64,000 bases of DNA, taken from assembly GCF_000297025.1 (NCBI RefSeq), contig NZ_CAKD01000024.1, positions 1 to 64,000 on the forward strand, written 5' to 3'. Source of the DNA: Lactobacillus pasteurii DSM 23907 = CRBIP 24.76. GTDB taxonomy: Bacteria > Bacillota > Bacilli > Lactobacillales > Lactobacillaceae. Of this stretch, positions 1 to 6,227 are shown piece after piece. The notes under the pieces were generated by a model. The model saw nothing but the letters and a program-made list of their open reading frames with translations, was not told the DNA's origin and made no database searches. A program made the translations under genes and the position numbers. Position 1 is the first letter of the stretch. Each line of letters starts with the position of its first letter.

Positions 1-34
1 CATTACGGCAAATTACTATAATTGGGATATTGGG
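1..34. repeat. Left attachment-site repeat (34 bp)
   Basis: It is identical to 5970-6003 and in the same orientation. The match ends after position 34 (AATC here, GCTC at the other copy). It carries only the last 13 nt of the tRNA-Gln gene (22-34) plus 21 bp of its downstream flank, so it is the chromosome-side att scar distal to the tRNA. Confidence 0.85.
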
Positions 35-87
35 AATCATACCAAGCCCCCTTAAATCGTTGTTATATCAAGGTTTAAAGAGTTAAA

Positions 88-118
88 TTAAAAATTTGGT
101 CCCCGAATTTGGACCCCT
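88..118. repeat. 31-bp repeat, likely integrase arm site (left)
   Basis: It is identical to 5862-5892 in the same orientation. Internally it holds two 12-mers, AATTTGGTCCCC and AATTTGGACCCC, separated by one G; GGTCC and GGACC also form a short inverted repeat. One copy lies within about 110 bp of each element end, the expected place for arm-type binding sites of a tyrosine integrase with an N-terminal arm-binding domain. The function is inference. Confidence 0.65.
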
Positions 119-123
119 TGACC

Positions 124-1281
124 CTAAAAACCCACATATTCAGCAAACTTTTCAGCTGTTTCACCCTTTTTGTCTTTTGTAACGTGGGTATAAATATTTA
201 AAGTTGTTGCGGTGTCTGCGTGTCCTAGCCGTTCGCTAACTTCTTTTATTGTCCTACCAGCTTCAAAAAGTAATGAAGCGTGCGTATGCCTGAACCCGTG
301 TATTTTAATTCTTCTAAGATTGTAAGCCTTACATATTGCACGGTTCCATTGGTCGGGCTTTGAAACTTGTGTAATACCATTGTTAGTATTAGCAAAAATA
401 AAATTATTCTTGCTTAAAAAATTATATCCCAGCTGTAACATTTGTTTTTGCTGAATAGTCCGCCACTCTTTCAAGTAGTTCATTGTCTGCGTGTCCATGT
501 CTATTAGTCTAATACTGCTTGCTGTTTTACCGTCTGATAAGTAAAGTCGGTTCTTTTCGCCAGTAGTAACCGACTTAGTAATATTGATAGTATTACTTTT
601 AAAACTAATATCTGACCATTTGAGGGCTAGGCACTCACCTTTTCGCATCCCAGAAAATGCCAAAAGCCTAAAAAATACAAAGTATTTAAAATTATAGCTC
701 TTAGCACATTCTAGAAACTTCTTTAATTCATCCTTTGAGTAAAAGTCATGAAAAGAATTTATGTTTTTAGGCGTTTTAGGTCTAACAACTTTACTCATTG
801 GATTTTTTTCGATTACTTCTATATCTATTCCATAATTTAGCACATTGGATGCATACCGCAAAAAACGCTTATAAGTTCTAGGAGCTTCAATAAACCATTC
901 ATTAACTGCTTGTTGACACTTTAAAACGGTTAACTTATCAAGAAACACATTGCCCAGCTGTTTTAAAATGTGATCGTTGAAATATCTAACAGTTGTTACG
1001 TATGTGCTCTCTTTTACCGTGTTCTTATAGTTTTTAAGCCACATTGCGTAAAGGTCTTTGAATTGCATATTTTTGCTTCTTACTGGTTCATATTCACCCT
1101 TTACCACTTGCAATTTTAAGGCTAATAAACTTTCAAGCGCTTCTTGCTCTGTCAAAAAGCCAGTTTTTTTAATTCTAATAGACTCCCCCGTCTTATCATC
1201 TTTACCAACGTAAAGACGAAACATAAAACGTTGTTTTCCTTTACCTGTCTTATAAGGAACTATTTTTGTTTCATCTTTCAT
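124..1281 (-). CDS. int: Tyrosine recombinase (element integrase)
   Basis: The 385-residue integrase catalyses site-specific integration and excision. An N-terminal AP2-like arm-binding domain (about residues 5-60) is followed by a SAM-like core-binding domain (about 70-160) and the catalytic domain. The catalytic set is visible: R213 (in GMRKGE), H328 and R331 (HGFRH), H354 (RLGH) and the nucleophile Y364 (IYTHV). I chose the ATG at 1281, preceded by AAGGG, over an upstream GTG at 1311 that would add ten residues and has no ribosome binding site. It is the last gene at the left end and reads toward the att site, as usual for tRNA-targeting elements. It is transcribed away from the replication module. 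Confidence 0.93.
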   Translation of the reverse strand: MKDETKIVPYKTGKGKQRFMFRLYVGKDDKTGESIRIKKTGFLTEQEALESLLALKLQVVKGEYEPVRSKNMQFKDLYAMWLKNYKNTVKESTYVTTVRYFNDHILKQLGNVFLDKLTVLKCQQAVNEWFIEAPRTYKRFLRYASNVLNYGIDIEVIEKNPMSKVVRPKTPKNINSFHDFYSKDELKKFLECAKSYNFKYFVFFRLLAFSGMRKGECLALKWSDISFKSNTINITKSVTTGEKNRLYLSDGKTASSIRLIDMDTQTMNYLKEWRTIQQKQMLQLGYNFLSKNNFIFANTNNGITQVSKPDQWNRAICKAYNLRRIKIHGFRHTHASLLFEAGRTIKEVSERLGHADTATTLNIYTHVTKDKKGETAEKFAEYVGF

Positions 1282-1298
1282 AATTAAAAGCCCTTCTA

Positions 1299-1324
1299 AT
1301 AGCCCACACACCTTAAAATGGCTA
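1299..1324. repeat. 26-bp direct repeat, copy 1
   Basis: It is identical to 2961-2986. It begins ATAGCCCACACACC and ends AAAATGGCTA, with terminal inverted halves TAGCC and GGCTA. It lies between the repressor stop and the integrase ribosome binding site. The other copy lies just upstream of the unknown gene at 3009. It could be an operator shared by two element promoters or an Xis or Int site; the role is unknown. Confidence 0.7.
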
Positions 1325-1355
1325 GAAAAAACTTTTTACTATGAGGGATGCATTA

Positions 1356-2090
1356 CTAATCTAAATACTTTTCAACCTTTTCAGCGTCAATATTTGGGTT
1401 ATCTGGTAGCCCTTCAAGTGATTTAGAAAAGCTATTAATGGTATCAACTAACTTATTATTGAACTCCAAAACCTGCTTCTTAGTTCCATAAGTTGTAATT
1501 AAATCTGCTACATTCAAACATTGCTTAATATCTGGTTTAACTTCTGTGTTAAATCGCATATTAATTAGGGATGCATTACTATTTTTTTCAATTTCCTTAC
1601 TAATCTTAATCATGAATTCAAATGTAAGCTTATAACGGCTAATAGTATCAAAATCAATTGTAAAATTTTCAGGGTGTTCGACCCCGAAAGCCTTTTTATA
1701 ATTAGCATCAAAGATAAAACCAAAATATTTAAGCCAGTAATCTTTTACGCTGTCTGTTAATTCTTCTAATTGCTCAGCTGTAAATAATTGTTCTGGTTTA
1801 ATTGCATTGATAAAGTCTAAATAATAAATGATTTTAGGTCTTAGCATTGAATTCTTATCCAAGTAGGAATTATTAAACACAGTTAGTAATTCTTTTTTGC
1901 TGTATGTGTTACCTTTTAAATAATCTATACTAGAATCAAGTATTTTAGATAATTTGGAATAAGAATTTTCATTTGGTTCCCGTTTGTCGTTCTCATATAA
2001 GCTTATAGCTTGTTGAGTTGTCCCTATTAACTCAGCGAGCTTTTTTTGGCTTATTTTTTTTGCTTTTCTAGCTTCTTTTATTCTATTCAT
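1356..2090 (-). CDS. cI-like HTH repressor
   Basis: This 244-residue protein has a Cro/C1-type helix-turn-helix at residues 1-60 (KKISQKKLAELIGTTQQAISLYEND). A longer C-terminal part, for which I recognise no peptidase motif, follows. It is therefore probably not a LexA-like self-cleaving repressor. It is transcribed divergently from the Cro-like gene at 2213, across a 122-bp control region with inverted repeats. This is the standard lysogeny-type switch, so it probably keeps the replication and excision genes silent. The same strand continues into int, 75 bp downstream. What relieves repression cannot be told from the sequence. Confidence 0.85.
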   Translation of the reverse strand: MNRIKEARKAKKISQKKLAELIGTTQQAISLYENDKREPNENSYSKLSKILDSSIDYLKGNTYSKKELLTVFNNSYLDKNSMLRPKIIYYLDFINAIKPEQLFTAEQLEELTDSVKDYWLKYFGFIFDANYKKAFGVEHPENFTIDFDTISRYKLTFEFMIKISKEIEKNSNASLINMRFNTEVKPDIKQCLNVADLITTYGTKKQVLEFNNKLVDTINSFSKSLEGLPDNPNIDAEKVEKYLD

Positions 2091-2212
2091 GTTTTCACCA
2101 CCTTTATTAAAAATATCGTATCATAGTTTCTAGCAAAAAGTTACACCTTTGCTGTTGTTTTTGCTGAAAATGTGTTCTATAATGTAAAAAACATCTAACG
2201 GAGGTGTAAAAA
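2091..2212. promoter_or_regulatory. Divergent control region of the element
   Basis: On the plus strand TTGTTT (2155-2160), a 17-nt spacer and a perfect TATAAT (2178-2183) form the early promoter, followed by the ribosome binding site GGAGGTG. An inverted repeat AGCAAAAA (2132-2139) / TTTTTGCT (2157-2164) overlaps the -35 hexamer and is the best candidate for a repressor or Cro operator. The leftward repressor promoter must also lie here but shows no clear consensus. Confidence 0.65.
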
Positions 2213-2431
2213 ATGAAACTTAGCAATAAACAAGCAATTGCATTAAGACGTTTACGAGGTGAAAAGAATTTAACTATAACCGAATTAGCAAAAGAACTAG
2301 GCGTTAATGTCTATACTGCTAAAAAGGCGCTTGTAACTGATAATGCTAACTTTAACCCGACAACGGTTAATAAAATTACTAATTGGATTATTGACCAATA
2401 CACACCAATTACAGTAAGCGAGGTGAAATAA
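2213..2431 (+). CDS. Cro-like small HTH protein
   Basis: The 72-residue protein is almost entirely a helix-turn-helix domain (LTITELAKELGVNVYTAKKAL, residues about 20-40). It starts at an ATG behind a strong GGAGGTG site and is the first gene rightward from the divergent switch, the position of a Cro-type antirepressor in temperate elements. Its stop codon directly abuts the ATG of the next gene, so the two are translationally linked. The Cro assignment rests on position and fold, not on a close family match. Confidence 0.75.
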   Translation: MKLSNKQAIALRRLRGEKNLTITELAKELGVNVYTAKKALVTDNANFNPTTVNKITNWIIDQYTPITVSEVK

Positions 2432-2872
2432 ATGAAGGCAGAACACAAGGAACAAAAAGAAAAAATTCAAATGGAATTTGATTTTCTAGCTCCTACCCCT
2501 ATCAGTTTTAGGGATGAAATAACAAAGCTCACTAAATCAGAAAAGGCGCTTTATAAAATCATCCCTACGGGAAAAAAGAACGCTGTAAATACTAAGCAAT
2601 TAGCAAAAACAATAGGCGTTGAATATAGGCGCATAACTGCGCTAATTCAACAAATAAGGCGCAAAAATATTGCTATTTGTTCAAGTCAAGAACCTAATTA
2701 CAGTGGTATTTATAAGCCGGCTAATATTGTAGAGTTTGCGGAGTTCTTTAATCGTTACCAACGGGCAAACCGTGAGAGAAACAAAACGGAGACCGCTCTT
2801 AAATATTCCGAATATGGAATTAAACTTTTAACGTGTGGAACGACAAAAAAGCCACCTGATAAAAGCAATTGA
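2432..2872 (+). CDS. Unknown early protein with winged-helix-like segment
   Basis: I do not recognise this 146-residue protein. The N-terminus is charged (KAEHKEQKEKIQMEFDF). The middle, about residues 55-90, looks like a DNA-binding helix-turn-helix (TKQLAKTIGVEYRRITALIQQIRRKNI). The C-terminus is basic. It starts immediately after the Cro-like stop, with the ribosome binding site GAGGTG inside the upstream gene. A stem-loop at 2891-2923 closes this two-gene unit. Similar small HTH proteins are common in the early regions of lactobacillus prophages; a role in switching to replication or excision is inference. Confidence 0.65.
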   Translation: MKAEHKEQKEKIQMEFDFLAPTPISFRDEITKLTKSEKALYKIIPTGKKNAVNTKQLAKTIGVEYRRITALIQQIRRKNIAICSSQEPNYSGIYKPANIVEFAEFFNRYQRANRERNKTETALKYSEYGIKLLTCGTTKKPPDKSN

Positions 2873-2890
2873 ATTGCTACAAGCACTAAA

Positions 2891-2923
2891 AAAGCCCGTT
2901 ACACGGCTAATGTAACGAGCTTT
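2891..2923 (+). terminator. Stem-loop after the early genes
   Basis: AAAGCCCGTTACA pairs with TGTAACGAGCTTT around a 7-nt loop with one mismatch. The U-tract is poor (TTTAAACAATAATATTT), so termination may be partial. Confidence 0.5.
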
Positions 2924-2960
2924 AAACAATAATATTTATAAATTTTTTACAGTTACGATT

Positions 2961-2986
2961 ATAGCCCACACACCTTAAAATGGCTA
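2961..2986. repeat. 26-bp direct repeat, copy 2
   Basis: It is identical to 1299-1324. Here the terminal inverted halves extend to ATAGCC and GGCTAT. It sits 22 bp upstream of the ATG at 3009, between the stem-loop and the second rightward gene group, where a promoter or operator would be expected. Confidence 0.7.
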
Positions 2987-3008
2987 TCAGAAAAAAGGAC
3001 TTTTAACA

Positions 3009-3326
3009 ATGGTAGAAAAGACAGAAAAGGAATTTATTATTTTCGATAAGTACGGAAATGTGCATTATACAAGCAATTTAAAAATTAAGAAAAGCGTTTC
3101 AAAGCCTTTAAACTCTTATATTTTGAAGTGTGATGCATCCCTATTCTTGGATTTAACGGAGGTGTTTTGTCTCTTTGTTCATGATTTAGATTTACATAAG
3201 TTTTATTCATGGTATGAGATAGATAATTCATTTGTCGAATCAGAGGACGGAACAAGTTTTTATAGAATGGCAAACATAGCTGTTAAACGCTATATAAAAC
3301 ATGAAGGATTGAAGGAGCTTAAATAA
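3009..3326 (+). CDS. Unknown element protein (105 aa)
   Basis: I do not recognise this protein. It is 105 residues, without transmembrane segments, mixed acidic and basic, and rich in aromatic residues in the middle (HDLDLHKFYSWYEID). It follows the 26-bp repeat and an AGGA ribosome binding site. It overlaps the excisionase-like gene by one base (TAATG), so both belong to one transcript leading to the initiator gene. By position it could help excision or replication; no function can be assigned. Confidence 0.7.
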   Translation: MVEKTEKEFIIFDKYGNVHYTSNLKIKKSVSKPLNSYILKCDASLFLDLTEVFCLFVHDLDLHKFYSWYEIDNSFVESEDGTSFYRMANIAVKRYIKHEGLKELK

Positions 3327-3595
3327 TGCTATTTCAACTAGACAAAAACGAAGAAACAGAATTAAAAAAGTACGTTCTAACAATTGTAAAAGATGCTATT
3401 AAAAGCGGTATTGAAAACAATAAACCTTATCTAACTAGAAAAGAGGTAGCAAAGTTTTTGGGCGTTGCTGAATCAACTGTTACAAATTGGGTATCATTAG
3501 GGATGCCAGTTGCAATTATTGACGGGCGCAAACTTTACGGCAAACAAAGCATTTTAGAATGGCTTAAAAGTCATGAAGTAAGTTCTAAGCAATAG
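3326..3595 (+). CDS. Excisionase-like HTH protein
   Basis: The 89-residue protein has a MerR/HTH_17-type DNA-binding domain in its C-terminal half. The segment LTRKEVAKFLGVAESTVTNW is followed by a wing (GMPVAIIDGRKLYGK) and a final helix. This is the usual fold of excisionases (Xis) and of small element-encoded regulators. Its start overlaps the upstream stop (TAATG). A perfect hairpin follows three bases after the stop. Excision partner of the integrase is the likeliest role; a regulator of the downstream initiator is the alternative. Confidence 0.75.
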   Translation: MLFQLDKNEETELKKYVLTIVKDAIKSGIENNKPYLTRKEVAKFLGVAESTVTNWVSLGMPVAIIDGRKLYGKQSILEWLKSHEVSSKQ

Positions 3596-3597
3596 AA

Positions 3598-3620
3598 AAG
3601 CATCCCTAAAAGGGATGCTT
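3598..3620 (+). terminator. Terminator-like hairpin with AGGGATGC arms
   Basis: AAGCATCCCT, an AAA loop and AGGGATGCTT form a perfect 10-bp stem followed by ATTTGTTT. Both arms are copies of the motif that recurs through the element. It separates the excisionase-like gene from the initiator gene. Confidence 0.65.
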
Positions 3621-3680
3621 ATTTGTTTACGAACATGTGCAAGTTTATTAAAAGTATTCAAGTATAGGATAGTTCAAAAA

Positions 3681-4610
3681 ATGGAAAAAAACAAGTTTAT
3701 TATTTCCAGCTGGAATAGTAACAACCCAGTTAAAGGGTCAAAATTTGACCCCCACCAAAAAAGCCTTGAAGAAATTTGCTATATTTCCATTGATTGGATC
3801 ACAATAACAGGGCTATTTTTAAAAAGCTCAGCAAAACAGGAATTAACTTCTATTGGTTGGGTTATTGCTAAGTCAGTAAATAGAGAGGTATTTAATTTAG
3901 AGTTGCAAGAAAAGAAAATCAATCATATTACTAACAAAGTCGATATAAATGTAAAAGCACGCATACAACCTAATGAGTATAGAGACACTTGGAGTCTAAG
4001 AACGTCTAATCATATCACTAAATCAGATAAAGAAAAGATTTTAAAAGCTGTCTCCTACTTCATAAAGCCTAAAATTACTAGAATCGATTTAGCATTTGAC
4101 TTCATTAATTTCAATGATGCAGGGATGCATTATAGATTTTATAAGACAGGCACGAAGACAACAACAATAACTAATACCAGTGGTAAGGTTGAAACTATTT
4201 ATTGCGGGTCGTCTAAATCTAATAGACAATACAGGTATTACAACAAATTGAGAGAACGCACGAACAATAAAGCGGAGGACATACCAAAAAGCTATTACAG
4301 TTGGGAACGGCTAGAATTAACCACCAAAAACAGGGATTTAGACCATGAAGTAAAAAGAATGTTAACATGTTTCAAGCGTCCTAAATATGCTAGCAATAAT
4401 TTAAAAGGTACTGCGAAAATAGCATTTATAGGATTGTCGGAGCATCCCGAACTAATAAGCGTGCTATCTAAGAACACAAAGAAAAAATACAAGGAATATT
4501 TAGAAAAGTATCAAGGATATGATGCCAATTATTCCGAACTAGCTTTAAAGGTATTCAATGCAAACAAAACAGAGATAGTAAAAGAGATTGAATCATTTAT
4601 CAAGGAATAG
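3681..4610 (+). CDS. Rep_trans-family replication initiator or MobT-type relaxase
   Basis: The 309-residue protein shows the conserved blocks of the Rep_trans family (pT181-type initiators and Tn916 Orf20/MobT relaxases). These are an N-terminal ISIDWITITG strand, ITRIDLAFDF, ETIYCGSSKSNRQYRYYNK (which should hold the catalytic tyrosine) and WERLELTTK. Such proteins nick one strand at a specific origin. I chose the ATG at 3681, because the upstream ATG at 3615 lies inside the terminator hairpin. No N-terminal HTH domain is present, unlike many MobT proteins. The tandem repeats and hairpin downstream suit a replication origin. Replication versus mobilization cannot be settled from sequence alone. 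A perfect 17-bp palindrome (GGGTCAAAATTTGACCC, near 3736) lies inside the 5' coding region. Confidence 0.82.
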   Translation: MEKNKFIISSWNSNNPVKGSKFDPHQKSLEEICYISIDWITITGLFLKSSAKQELTSIGWVIAKSVNREVFNLELQEKKINHITNKVDINVKARIQPNEYRDTWSLRTSNHITKSDKEKILKAVSYFIKPKITRIDLAFDFINFNDAGMHYRFYKTGTKTTTITNTSGKVETIYCGSSKSNRQYRYYNKLRERTNNKAEDIPKSYYSWERLELTTKNRDLDHEVKRMLTCFKRPKYASNNLKGTAKIAFIGLSEHPELISVLSKNTKKKYKEYLEKYQGYDANYSELALKVFNANKTEIVKEIESFIKE

Positions 4611-5010
4611 AAATGTTTTTTAAGTAGGGTCAAATATTTGAGCGTTTAACTGTCCCCACCAAAAGTATTTATTATGATAATAATAAATACAGAGATATAA
4701 ACGGTCGGGCAAAAATAAAAAGCGTTTTTTCGCATCATGGCTGTAATTTATTGTTGGAGGGTCGGGCACTGGTTAACCCTATCAACTAATACAAATGGCT
4801 TTATATCAAGCTTTATTTAAAGCGACTAGGAATTATAATTCACTACCCACACGAAATACAGTTCATGGGATGCAATAATATTAGGGATATGAGGGCTAAA
4901 AGCCCTTTTTGTTTTACTTCAAGTTAAAAAACCAATCGAAGAAAATCGAATATAGGCGAAAATGCTATAATACAGGCGTTTTTTAAAGCTTGTAATAGTT
5001 ATGTGCTTAC
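4611..5010 (+). other. Non-coding origin-like region after the initiator
   Basis: No convincing gene lies here. From left to right: GGGTCAAATATTTGAG (near 4627) with CCCCACCAAAA, resembling the palindrome inside the initiator gene. Then a perfect 11-bp inverted repeat GTATTTATTAT / ATAATAAATAC (4665-4675, 4680-4690) around GATA. Then two GGTCGGGCA repeats (about 4703 and 4756). Then a terminator GGGCT-AAA-AGCCC-TTTTT (4893-4910), and an extended -10 (TGC TATAAT, 4966-4971) with a poor -35 firing toward the tandem repeats. A nick site (double-strand origin or oriT) in this stretch is inference. Confidence 0.55.
4893..4910 (+). terminator. Rho-independent terminator downstream of the initiator
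   Basis: GGGCT, an AAA loop and AGCCC are followed by TTTTTGTTTT. It lies about 280 nt after the initiator stop, so the initiator mRNA would carry a long untranslated tail through the origin-like region. Confidence 0.7.
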
Positions 5011-5210
5011 AAATTGAACACATTAAAAAAGAAAATGTTTGCTTTATCCGGACAAATTGGACACATTAAAAAGAAAATACTTGCTTTATCCGGACAAATT
5101 GGACACCCTAAAAAAGAAAATGTTTGCTTTATCCGGACAAATTGGACACATTAAAAAGAAAATACTTGCTTTATCCGGACAAATTGGACACCCTAAAAAA
5201 GAAAATGTAA
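5011..5210. repeat. Tandem 42/43-bp iteron-like repeats
   Basis: Four full units start at 5041, 5083, 5126 and 5168, and a decayed half unit precedes them at 5011. Each begins GCTTTATCCGGACAAATTGG followed by ACAC, then an A-rich spacer. Two spacer types alternate (ACATTAAAAAG and ACCCTAAAAAAG), giving an 85-bp superperiod. This suggests that a two-unit block was duplicated. Within each unit GGACA occurs twice, 9 bp apart. Directly repeated units of this size near an initiator gene resemble iterons. They are not CRISPR, because the intervening sequence is itself repeated. Confidence 0.85.
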
Positions 5211-5219
5211 AGATATATG

Positions 5220-5672
5220 CTAATTTTCTTCTAAAAGGTCTGGTAACTCTGACACATTCCGTTTAATCCGCCAGTAATTCAAACGTTCAGCAAATTCAAT
5301 GCATCCCTGATTTAATTGTTGTCTTAGCTTGTAATTTGAAAAGCTTAATTTAATTGCTGTTTGTTCCTGCGTCAATTGCTGAATGTACAAACTATATAAA
5401 ATAGTCTTTCTTTTCTGATATTCAAAGTCGGAACAATCGTACAAGGCTAAAAGAATTGTAATTGCTATATATTGGGCTCTGTCTGCCTTATCGAGCGTGT
5501 TTATTACGTTTTCTTCTAACCCGTTTACATTGCTTGTATTGGTAGCTATTGCATCAAAATTAGCGCTTTTAAGCGTTGTCGGACGTATTCCGCCTAATTG
5601 GATATAATGCCAAAAGTCCCCCGTTAAAAATGATTTTACATTTGAAATAGTATTCTTTTCGTTTACTGTCAT
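5220..5672 (-). CDS. ArpU-like phage transcriptional regulator
   Basis: The 150-residue protein resembles ArpU/RinA-type late regulators of Firmicute phages. Its C-terminal half (about residues 80-140) looks like a sigma region-4-type helix-turn-helix: RKTILYSLYIQQLTQEQTAIKL, then SFSNYKLRQQLNQGCIEFAERL. It has a strong AGGGGGG ribosome binding site and a perfect TATAAT at 5696-5701. It is convergent with the rightward genes, its stop lying next to the tandem repeats. In phages such proteins switch on late genes. This element has none, so the target may be on a helper phage, or in the element itself. That is inference. Confidence 0.68.
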   Translation of the reverse strand: MTVNEKNTISNVKSFLTGDFWHYIQLGGIRPTTLKSANFDAIATNTSNVNGLEENVINTLDKADRAQYIAITILLALYDCSDFEYQKRKTILYSLYIQQLTQEQTAIKLSFSNYKLRQQLNQGCIEFAERLNYWRIKRNVSELPDLLEEN

Positions 5673-5712
5673 GATAATTATTCCCCCCTGCTAACATTAT
5701 ACAGGACGCAAA

Positions 5713-5737
5713 AAAGCACCCCTGTTAGGGATGCTTT
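5713..5737. terminator. Imperfect hairpin with AGGGATGC arm
   Basis: AAAGCACCCCT and AGGGATGCTTT pair around GTT with one mismatch. It resembles the hairpin at 3598-3620. It lies upstream of the ArpU-like gene and could act in either direction. Confidence 0.45.
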
Positions 5738-5861
5738 AAGGTAGTACAATAAAATGTACTAAGTAAAGTAAAATGCTTTATCTAACCATTTTAAGGCGCT
5801 TTAAGGCTATAATAAATAATACAGTATACCAATTTTATAAAATTATTGATAACTAACAAAT

Positions 5862-5892
5862 TTAAAAATTTGGTCCCCGAATTTGGACCCCT
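5862..5892. repeat. 31-bp repeat, likely integrase arm site (right)
   Basis: It is identical to 88-118 and in the same orientation, about 78 bp inside the right attachment core. The two AATTTGGWCCCC half-sites inside each copy suit cooperative binding by an integrase arm-binding domain. The rest of 5673-5969 holds no gene. Confidence 0.65.
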
Positions 5893-5938
5893 AAAAACAA
5901 ATTTTCAGCTAATTCCACGTAATCGCAAAAAACAAAAA

Positions 5939-5979
5939 TGCCGTAATGTCGGGCTTTTAAGCTATCCCACATTACGGCA
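5939..5979 (-). terminator. Terminator of the tRNA operon, half supplied by the element
   Basis: On the minus strand TGCCGTAATGT (5979-5969) pairs perfectly with ACATTACGGCA (5949-5939), followed by TTTTTGTTTTTT. The promoter-proximal arm lies in the att repeat and the distal arm and U-tract lie in the element. So the element restores a terminator behind the tRNA-Gln gene that it enters. Confidence 0.75.
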
Positions 5980-6003
5980 AATTACTATAATTGGGATATT
6001 GGG
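5970..6003. repeat. Right attachment-site repeat (34 bp)
   Basis: It is identical to 1-34. It covers the last 13 nt of the intact tRNA-Gln gene (discriminator, 3' acceptor strand and part of the T stem) and 21 bp of flank. Integration therefore leaves a complete tRNA gene at this end. Confidence 0.88.
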
Positions 6004-6063
6004 GCTCGAACCCAAACATCCAGGAACCAGAATCCTGTGCCTTACCAATTTGGCTATATCCCA
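5991..6063 (-). tRNA. tRNA-Gln (anticodon CUG)
   Basis: The 73-nt cloverleaf has acceptor TGGGATA/TATCCCA with discriminator A. The D stem is GCC/GGC, the anticodon stem CAGGA/TCCTG with loop TTCTGGT (anticodon CTG), and the T arm TTGGG-TTCGAGC-CCCAA. U1-A72 is typical of tRNA-Gln. CCA is not encoded. It reads CAG codons and is the second gene of a two-tRNA transcript; its 3' end is the element attachment site. Confidence 0.93.
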
Positions 6064-6068
6064 ATAAA

Positions 6069-6140
6069 TCACCCGTACGAGAATCGAACTCGCAATTCCA
6101 CCTTGAGAGGGTAGCGTCTTAACCATTTGACCAACGGGCA
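6069..6140 (-). tRNA. tRNA-Glu (anticodon CUC), unusual acceptor end
   Basis: The 72-nt gene has anticodon stem CTACC/GGTGG with loop CTCTCAA (anticodon CTC), D stem GTC/GAC and T arm GCGAG-TTCGATT-CTCGT. Acceptor positions 3-7 pair normally, but positions 1-72 and 2-71 are U.G and G.U wobbles, where tRNA-Glu normally has two G-C-type pairs. The gene reads GAG codons. It lies 5 nt upstream of tRNA-Gln and behind a strong promoter, so it is probably expressed. Whether it is fully charged is open. Confidence 0.82.
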
Positions 6141-6155
6141 AATTCAACATTAATT

Positions 6156-6184
6156 ATTATGATAGTATTTCATAGCCTTGTCAA
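6156..6184 (-). promoter_or_regulatory. Promoter of the tRNA-Glu/tRNA-Gln operon
   Basis: A perfect -35 TTGACA (6184-6179), a 17-nt spacer and CATAAT (6161-6156) lie 16 bp before the first tRNA. Confidence 0.85.
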
Positions 6185-6227
6185 GTGTTTTCGACTATAA
6201 TGAGTATCATTGAAAGGATTGGAAAAT

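Follow-up and report, generated by a model that had tools for sequence, protein, structure and literature searches.

What kind of mobile element occupies the first 5969 bp of a contig of Lactobacillus pasteurii DSM 23907 = CRBIP 24.76 (RefSeq assembly GCF_000297025.1, NZ_CAKD01000024.1), where a phage-type switch and a phage late-gene regulator are combined with a plasmid-type replication initiator? The stretch analyzed, hereafter the window, comprises positions 1–64,000 of the forward strand, and a first-pass annotation made from its letters had suggested an undescribed class of minimal satellite or integrative and mobilizable element (IME). Our follow-up suggests that the unit is probably, though not securely, a minimal satellite island of Lactobacillus that resembles the phage-inducible chromosomal islands (PICIs), falls in the size class of the phage-inducible chromosomal minimalist islands (PICMIs), and carries its own late activator. 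To call it an undescribed class is too strong, as the unit and its relatives can be placed, as a variant, among the known satellites or integrative replicons.

A Unit with Exact Ends at tRNA-Gln

A perfect 34-bp direct repeat at positions 1–34 and 5970–6003 bounds the 5969-bp unit (1–5969), and the first base of the window is the exact start of the mobile unit. In 100 mononucleotide shuffles of positions 1–6200, the longest direct repeat with copies at least 3.5 kb apart is 14 bp, which places the 34-bp repeat far above chance and bears out the ends originally proposed. Bases 21–34 of the left copy, on the attL side, match the 3′ end of tRNA-Gln, while the right copy, on the attR side, runs into the 3′ end of the integration target, a tRNA-Gln(ctg) gene that is called as complete (5990–6064, minus strand). 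A 31-bp repeat is found twice, at 88–118 and 5862–5892, inside the ends of the unit and in the position expected of integrase arm sites; given the Arm-DNA-bind_4 domain, these are likely arm-type sites. An element-borne inverted repeat at 5940–5978 resembles a terminator for the tRNA gene. The unit has a GC content of 32.8%, as compared with 38.3% elsewhere in the window.

Eight intact genes lie between the repeats, with no open reading frame (ORF) broken. On the minus strand are a tyrosine integrase of 385 aa (124–1281; ATG at 1281, longest ORF from a GTG at 1311; PF00589, 3.7e-25) and a CI-like helix-turn-helix (HTH) repressor of 244 aa (1356–2090; PF01381, 3e-15). The plus strand carries a Cro-like HTH protein of 72 aa (2213–2431; phrog_11187, 4e-11), a 146-aa protein of the function-unknown family phrog_2113 that is present in several relatives (2432–2872), a 105-aa protein that may be an accessory gene (3009–3326), an 89-aa Xis/HTH_17-like DNA-binding protein (3326–3595; best match phrog_668, 1e-11), and a 309-aa Rep_trans rolling-circle initiator of the pT181/RepDE type (3681–4610; ATG at 3681, longest ORF from 3615; PF02486, 1.3e-7). 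The last gene, on the minus strand at 5220–5672, encodes a 150-aa ArpU-like late transcription activator (phrog_248, 5e-23; TIGR01637, 2e-7, below cut-off). It is separated from rep by a non-coding region (4611–5219), in which tandem repeats with a period of 42–43 bp, about four helical turns, run for 4.7 copies immediately 3′ of arpU (5009–5208). Family profiles recovered every gene that the first-pass annotation had listed, and these genes, together with the exact ends, support its description of a self-contained, integrase-borne unit with a replication initiator. The same annotation had claimed that structural and cargo genes are both absent. The first part stands for the eight proteins scanned, in which no head, tail or lysis gene is found and only HTH look-alikes appear, the strongest being a match of the Xis-like protein to the small-terminase family phrog_57 (2.7e-7) that we read as HTH resemblance. 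The second part cannot be claimed for the 105-aa protein, because it matches nothing in Pfam, PHROGs, NCBIfam or PADLOC.

The same genome holds the unit on two contigs, C7:1–5968, which is the start of the window, and C10:168041–174008, and the two copies are 100% identical. On C10 the unit is preceded by 221 bp and then by murT (NF045635, 1.5e-159, below cut-off). We therefore reject the idea that the window edge truncates a larger prophage and leaves the unit as its tip, as murT and not a prophage lies to its left. The 221 bp end in a near-copy of the right end of the element; together with the 34 bp, 113 of 114 positions are identical. This left-end copy is best read as the scar of an earlier element, and the att core is likely some 14–15 bp long and formed by the last bases of the tRNA-Gln gene. 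Both readings draw on the 113/114 match, on terminators that differ at element-free sites, and on the repeat lengths of related islands described below: of 15 siblings in which the repeats are resolved, 14 have 14–26 bp and one has 88 bp. The 34-bp repeat would then exceed the core because the scar adds length.

The same junction without the element, which the first-pass annotation had proposed to look for, is found in two genomes (G026, locus L028, and G010, L036), where murT adjoins the tRNA gene, no element is present, and the terminators are quite different; the comparison is with other species of the genus rather than with strains of one species. In a third genome (G015, L029) the element is absent, yet a hairpin resembling its right end persists. 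Beside tRNA-Gln in four further genomes, ArpU-like genes or fragments occur with no related integrase there: genes at L153 (G025) and L155 (G074), a decayed fragment at G030:C2:744150–744506, and a very short one at G007:C9:162589–162759. These are probable scars of lost elements.

The assembly itself may hold a trace of another form of the unit. The whole unit is common to the ends of C10 and C7, which stop in it instead of joining; C10 breaks off at base 5968 of the unit and not behind the repeat, and C7 starts at the first base after the sole position where the two end copies differ. This starting point, along with the ending of both contigs in the unit, suggests that a head-to-tail junction, from a circle or a tandem, was present in the reads.

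A Conserved Chassis with Exchanged Replication Genes

An integrase search of 75 Lactobacillus genomes (E ≤ 1e-60) gave 19 matches that represent 18 distinct loci in 17 genomes; all 18 loci were inspected. Where both ends are visible, the units measure 6.0–10.6 kb. The integrase, the repressor and the Xis-like gene occur in all 18 loci, with a homologue of the window's Xis-like protein in 17/17 other loci (50–66% identity in 15). In 16 of the 18, the integrase strand carries an ArpU-like gene beyond the replication slot, a count that draws on a profile made from element and phage rows combined; phrog_248, an independent profile, recovers 14 of these 16 genes at E ≤ 1e-6 and misses those of G005 and G003, and the ArpU identity of L090–L092 and L094 comes from weak phrog_248 matches (6e-9 to 8e-5). 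No ArpU-like gene is found in L021, and the contig of L140 stops 1.4 kb past its primase gene. L023, L134, L136 and L137 have two ArpU copies each, and L133 has a further, oppositely oriented copy where its contig ends. Repeats compatible with att sites flank 16/18 loci, the remaining two (L133 and L140) reaching contig ends. The targets include tRNA-Gln(ctg), with eight islands, tRNA-Gln(ttg), tRNA-Ser and tRNA-Pro; at the repeats of L022, L024, L135 and L137 no tRNA is called, and in L024 the pair of 15-bp repeats could have arisen by chance.

The replication slot holds Rep_trans genes in six loci (the window unit and L021–L025), primase/helicase genes in seven (L090, L091, L092, L134, L135, L138 and L140), VapE in two (L094 and L136), DnaD/replisome-organizer-like genes in two (L133 and L137), and an unassigned gene in L139. 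The primase call is confirmed by TIGR01613 in L134, and the calls of L135, L138 and L140 derive from a profile built from L090–L092. Primase or VapE modules thus sit on the same chassis, and at the same tRNA gene, as the window unit, and it is on this ground that the satellite half of the original proposal of a "minimal satellite or IME" is retained. No phrog_2 terminase is present in any of the 18 intervals, and among 28 family proteins scanned with PHROGs there is no head, tail or lysis family apart from weak HTH matches. A phrog_2 terminase is also absent from 16 tRNA-Gln(ctg) neighborhoods, eight with an element and eight without, in which other prophage genes were not searched.

These data bear directly on the reading of the unit as a decayed prophage, or a prophage fragment, that has retained its early genes and ArpU. 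Integrase, CI, Cro, Xis and ArpU are all phage genes, and scars and remnants are seen at the site. However, the ends are exact and the frames open, the same compact order recurs in 18 loci at several tRNA genes, att-consistent repeats are the rule, and the phrog_2 search of the intervals and, weak HTH matches aside, the PHROGs scan of the 28 proteins found no terminase, head, tail or lysis family. The recurrence of the compact unit already contradicts decay, to which we assign next to no probability. Nor does the unit contain the structural, packaging and lysis genes of an intact prophage. Extra genes occur in larger members of the family, such as an Ant-type antirepressor (L134:4231–4929) and a PD-T4-9-like protein from a defense library (L139:6054–6479).

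The Rep_trans Initiator and Its Relatives

The six element Reps align along their length, and RxD, YxKxxE and WxRxE are invariant among them. The motifs listed for Rep_trans proteins are RxD, T/SxY/ExG, YxKxxE and W/LxRxE together with an N-terminal D (PMC5714925); the window Rep carries all five, and L024 and L025 deviate at the second. The protein matches the RepDE structures 4cwc (2.5e-22) and 4cwe (4.9e-21). In a tree of 22 rows, four reference proteins with sub-cut-off matches to the MobT model are split at 100/99 from the Reps of plasmids, of another Lactobacillales family and of the elements, with long-branch warnings for two rows, one of them among the four references. The element Reps form a 100/100 group, which also contains the Rep of L078. 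For the three element Reps tested (window, L022 and L024), NCBIfam gives no match to MobT, and the window Rep has no NCBIfam match at all. Judged by these alignments, the predicted protein is an initiator of the pT181 type that is separate from the MobT relaxases.

A strong hairpin with a T-rich tail precedes rep in 6/6 Rep_trans members (3598–3620, plus strand, in the window) and resembles a terminator or attenuator. Its position recalls the copy control of pT181. The longest rep ORF starts upstream of the hairpin or within it in three members (the window unit, L023 and L024), and we take these to be wrong starts; L023 and L024, which gave no result in the hairpin test with the long ORF starts, fold as hairpins at the likely true leader. 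A search for conserved words near rep gave nothing convincing as a double-strand origin.

The search with the initiator that the first-pass annotation had suggested matched 9/75 genomes of the genus. Six of these are the Rep_trans members, and three matches were left uncounted (G023, on a 3.5-kb contig, and weak partial matches in G046 and G041). The family-level search matched 8/397; at the level of the order, 89/395 genomes matched, many weakly and in part. Six strong loci in another Lactobacillales family were inspected, of which three are in larger islands and three are few-gene int-rep units. At one of them, L127, the neighbor of Rep is a MobV relaxase (NF041497, 1.5e-59), and a similar ORF is present in L128 and L129. 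The few-gene units, L130–L132, consist of a Rep_trans-type protein with an integrase, and two of them lie beside tRNA-Lys. The Rep found within the element group at L078 comes from an IMG/VR contig of 10072 bp that is inovirus-like and has a protein I/Zot-like gene. A filamentous-phage origin of the window unit is rejected, as no such morphogenesis gene is matched by the unit's proteins; at most, the Rep module is common to both.

The relatives with MobV or an integrase are among the points in favor of an IME, in which the Rep_trans protein would be a MobT-like relaxase that hijacks a conjugative element of the Tn916/ICEBs1 type. PF02486 proteins outnumber all other relaxase superfamilies in streptococcal IMEs, with 55 in the collection, and classes 1 and 10 of these likewise are integrated and combine a tyrosine integrase with a Rep_trans-family protein (PMC5357655). 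The window unit differs from them in having no MobT match and no MobV or coupling protein, in carrying ArpU, and in a replication slot that is interchangeable with primases. General family scans find no Mob or coupling gene among its eight proteins, although oriT was not searched, and the 100/99 branch sets the four MobT references apart, while siblings fill the slot with primase, VapE or DnaD-like genes. Considering these differences, an IME is improbable, and this half of the original proposal is not retained. Small units of "int plus Rep_trans" may be counted as IMEs even though their closest kin look like phage satellites.

The same data can be read in terms of an autonomous integrative plasmid or replicon, which needs no more than Int and Rep to excise, persist by rolling-circle replication and re-integrate, which spreads by transformation or generalized transduction, and in which ArpU regulates only the element. 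Rep clusters with the initiators of small plasmids and not with relaxases, it matches RepDE, and pT181-family plasmids have in common with the window unit both the initiator family and the hairpin before rep. Furthermore, neither a packaging signal nor a co-occurrence with terminase was found. The window unit differs from these plasmids in that it is integrated at a tRNA gene with int, a CI/Cro switch and ArpU. A phage-type switch along with an ArpU gene that is kept in 16/18 loci, and is under purifying selection in the four pairs measured, is hard to explain without a phage link, and the primase/helicase, VapE and DnaD-like genes of the siblings belong to phage families. We therefore regard the plasmid as unlikely, if a better candidate than the IME.

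ArpU, Phages and the Comparison with Satellites

The window ArpU shares 58% identity with its counterpart in the resident prophage and only 21–30% with five counterparts encoded at four other element loci. A tree was built from 34 rows, comprising 20 element rows, 13 phage rows and one ungrouped (L133b). Element and phage proteins separate in this tree with 2 label changes, as compared with a mean of 10.5 after shuffling (0/500 as low). The window protein is the exception, as it lies inside the phage group as sister to the prophage ArpU of its own genome (100/99); L133b, the second ArpU of its locus, also falls among the phage rows and, if counted as an element protein, is a second exception. 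Six branches of the tree are long, and the placement of L025, L133a, L136b and L137a/b is weak. Synonymous differences between the window and prophage arpU genes have reached saturation, so the gene was not taken over recently. In the four pairs of element arpU genes measured (L092 used twice), dN/dS is 0.07–0.30, and these genes are under purifying selection.

Repeats follow arpU in phages as well as in elements. In CR191, CV244 and the G029 prophage they are direct repeats spaced 10–11 bp, with other short repeats in other phages, while the arrays behind the element genes are of 42 bp in the window and of 31 and 10 bp in L023 and L025, respectively. The array sequences of phages and elements differ, and a common binding site does not follow. 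The 42-bp array may contain ArpU sites; theta iterons are not favored, since Rep appears to be of the rolling-circle type. By visual inspection, an array unit of related sequence (TTTTTTAGGGTGTC..CAAATGTC-like) is seen in three elements (window 5009–5208, L023:5462–5625 and L133:8398–8470; periods 42, 31 and 31 bp, respectively), in each case adjacent to an arpU gene, and these genes differ in type and orientation. Two exact array patterns have no match in IMG/VR.

PICIs are defined by an integrase and a master repressor oriented leftwards and by xis and a replication module oriented rightwards (PMC6092414). The window unit shows the same layout, with int and repressor on one strand and a divergent Cro/AlpA-like gene, xis and replication genes on the other; as in PICIs, no structural or lytic gene is found, and primase or VapE is present in siblings at that tRNA. 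It departs from PICIs in replication module and size. Their replication module consists of a primase homologue and an initiator, whereas the window unit has Rep_trans only (primase/helicase is found in 7/18 loci of the family and VapE in 2/18), and their size is about 15 kb, or 9.5 kbp on average according to PMC10803314, as compared with 5969 bp. The window unit is also without a recognized packaging or capsid gene and has the ArpU-like gene at its far end. Further hallmarks of PICIs are att sites that prophages never use and induction, packaging and interference that depend on a phage.

Closer in size is PICMI115, a 6110-bp satellite with rolling-circle concatemers and apparently headful packaging, for which no cos, pac or terS has been identified (PMC10803314). 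Like it, the window unit is about 6 kb long, has little beyond excision and replication genes, lacks packaging genes, and has an initiator of the rolling-circle type. PICMIs lie beside fis in Vibrionaceae and the window unit lies at tRNA-Gln in Lactobacillus, and the two are likened by size and gene content, not by sequence. The word ArpU is absent from the main text of the PICMI paper. Because the introduction of that paper names Lactobacilli among the hosts of capsid-forming PICIs (cf-PICIs), satellites are to be expected in this group. A report on Streptococcus thermophilus satellites has no ArpU or Rep_trans in its main text (PMC13376191). In one open-access library, searches on ArpU in satellites or islands and on phage satellites of Lactobacillus gave no paper that, judged by its title and the opening of its abstract, treats this family or its combination of genes. 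In P4, the delta protein controls late transcription of the helper P2. P4-like satellites thus offer a conceptual parallel for an activator that a satellite encodes and that acts on the late genes of its helper, though the replication gene of the window unit is different.

By their gene content, the islands look like stripped-down parasites of phages, and a life cycle of the following kind can be inferred. The CI-like repressor would silence the island while it is integrated at the 3′ end of tRNA-Gln. Once induced, the island would be excised by Int and the Xis-like HTH protein as a circle of about 5969 bp, and the Rep_trans protein would nick a double-strand origin and start rolling-circle replication, possibly with head-to-tail multimers as products. 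A tailed helper phage would provide the capsid and packaging, and the ArpU-like protein could act on late transcription of the helper, on that of the array which lies beside arpU in the island itself, or on both. The resident prophage encodes both terminase subunits (small and large), a portal and a major head protein. A second terminase gene is located at G000:C14:41574–42785, and the genome may therefore contain a second prophage.

Several comparisons weigh against this satellite reading. No exact 16-mer is common to the unit and 56 kb of C10, of which 36 kb are the prophage region, and neither DNA matches to the unit nor relatives of its Rep occur among 50,697 phage records. Against the phage records, three non-coding regions, including that between rep and arpU, gave nothing relevant (the best is a 33-bp match at 1e-3 to a staphylococcal antirepressor gene), and in a comparison of 16 element regions with 10 phage regions no element-phage pair reached 0.01. 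Repeats behind arpU exceed shuffles (p ≤ 0.02) in 3/6 element regions and 9/13 phage regions tested, and not in the resident prophage. The window element lacks the phage-type ArpU repeats (TTCAACGA-like, every 10–11 bp in CR191 and the G029 prophage), the same scan finds none behind the arpU gene of the resident prophage, and the words of the element's array do not occur in the resident prophage. Finally, phrog_2 terminase is no commoner in carriers (8/17 genomes) than overall (34/75), a measure that need not cover all terminases, since several genomes have strong phage-type ArpU matches and no phrog_2 match. A cos or pac site in common with the resident prophage or with phages was considered as a candidate, and none was found by these comparisons. 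The helper phage need not be resident.

More tentatively, and with a good deal less confidence than we place in a satellite as such, the family may be a distinct, unnamed satellite lineage with a constant Int, repressor and Xis-like protein, nearly always an ArpU, and plug-in replication. In such a lineage, ArpU would control late transcription of the helper, the activator would be adopted from a locally common phage, and rolling-circle concatemers would fill a full-size capsid. The adoption is suggested by the sister position of the window ArpU to that of the resident prophage. If this holds, the islands provide a natural series within one genus, eight of them at one tRNA gene, that differ in replication and mostly keep a phage-facing activator. 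How few genes a phage satellite needs would then become testable, as would the notion that Gram-positive satellites steer the late transcription of their helper by an ArpU-type activator of their own.

Two minor features of the unit are recorded here. In Rfam, besides tRNAs, a sub-threshold match to the Enterococcus small RNA RefA9 is seen at 2859–2922 (45 bits, gathering threshold 49), along with three weaker ones; nine relative loci show no counterpart of the RefA9-like match. The other feature is the word GGGATGC/GCATCCC, of which the element (window 1–5968) has 12 copies where the chromosomal background predicts 0.56, and L023:4414–14654 has 16 (0.99 expected), in coding and non-coding DNA and in both orientations; the other four Rep_trans members have 2–6.

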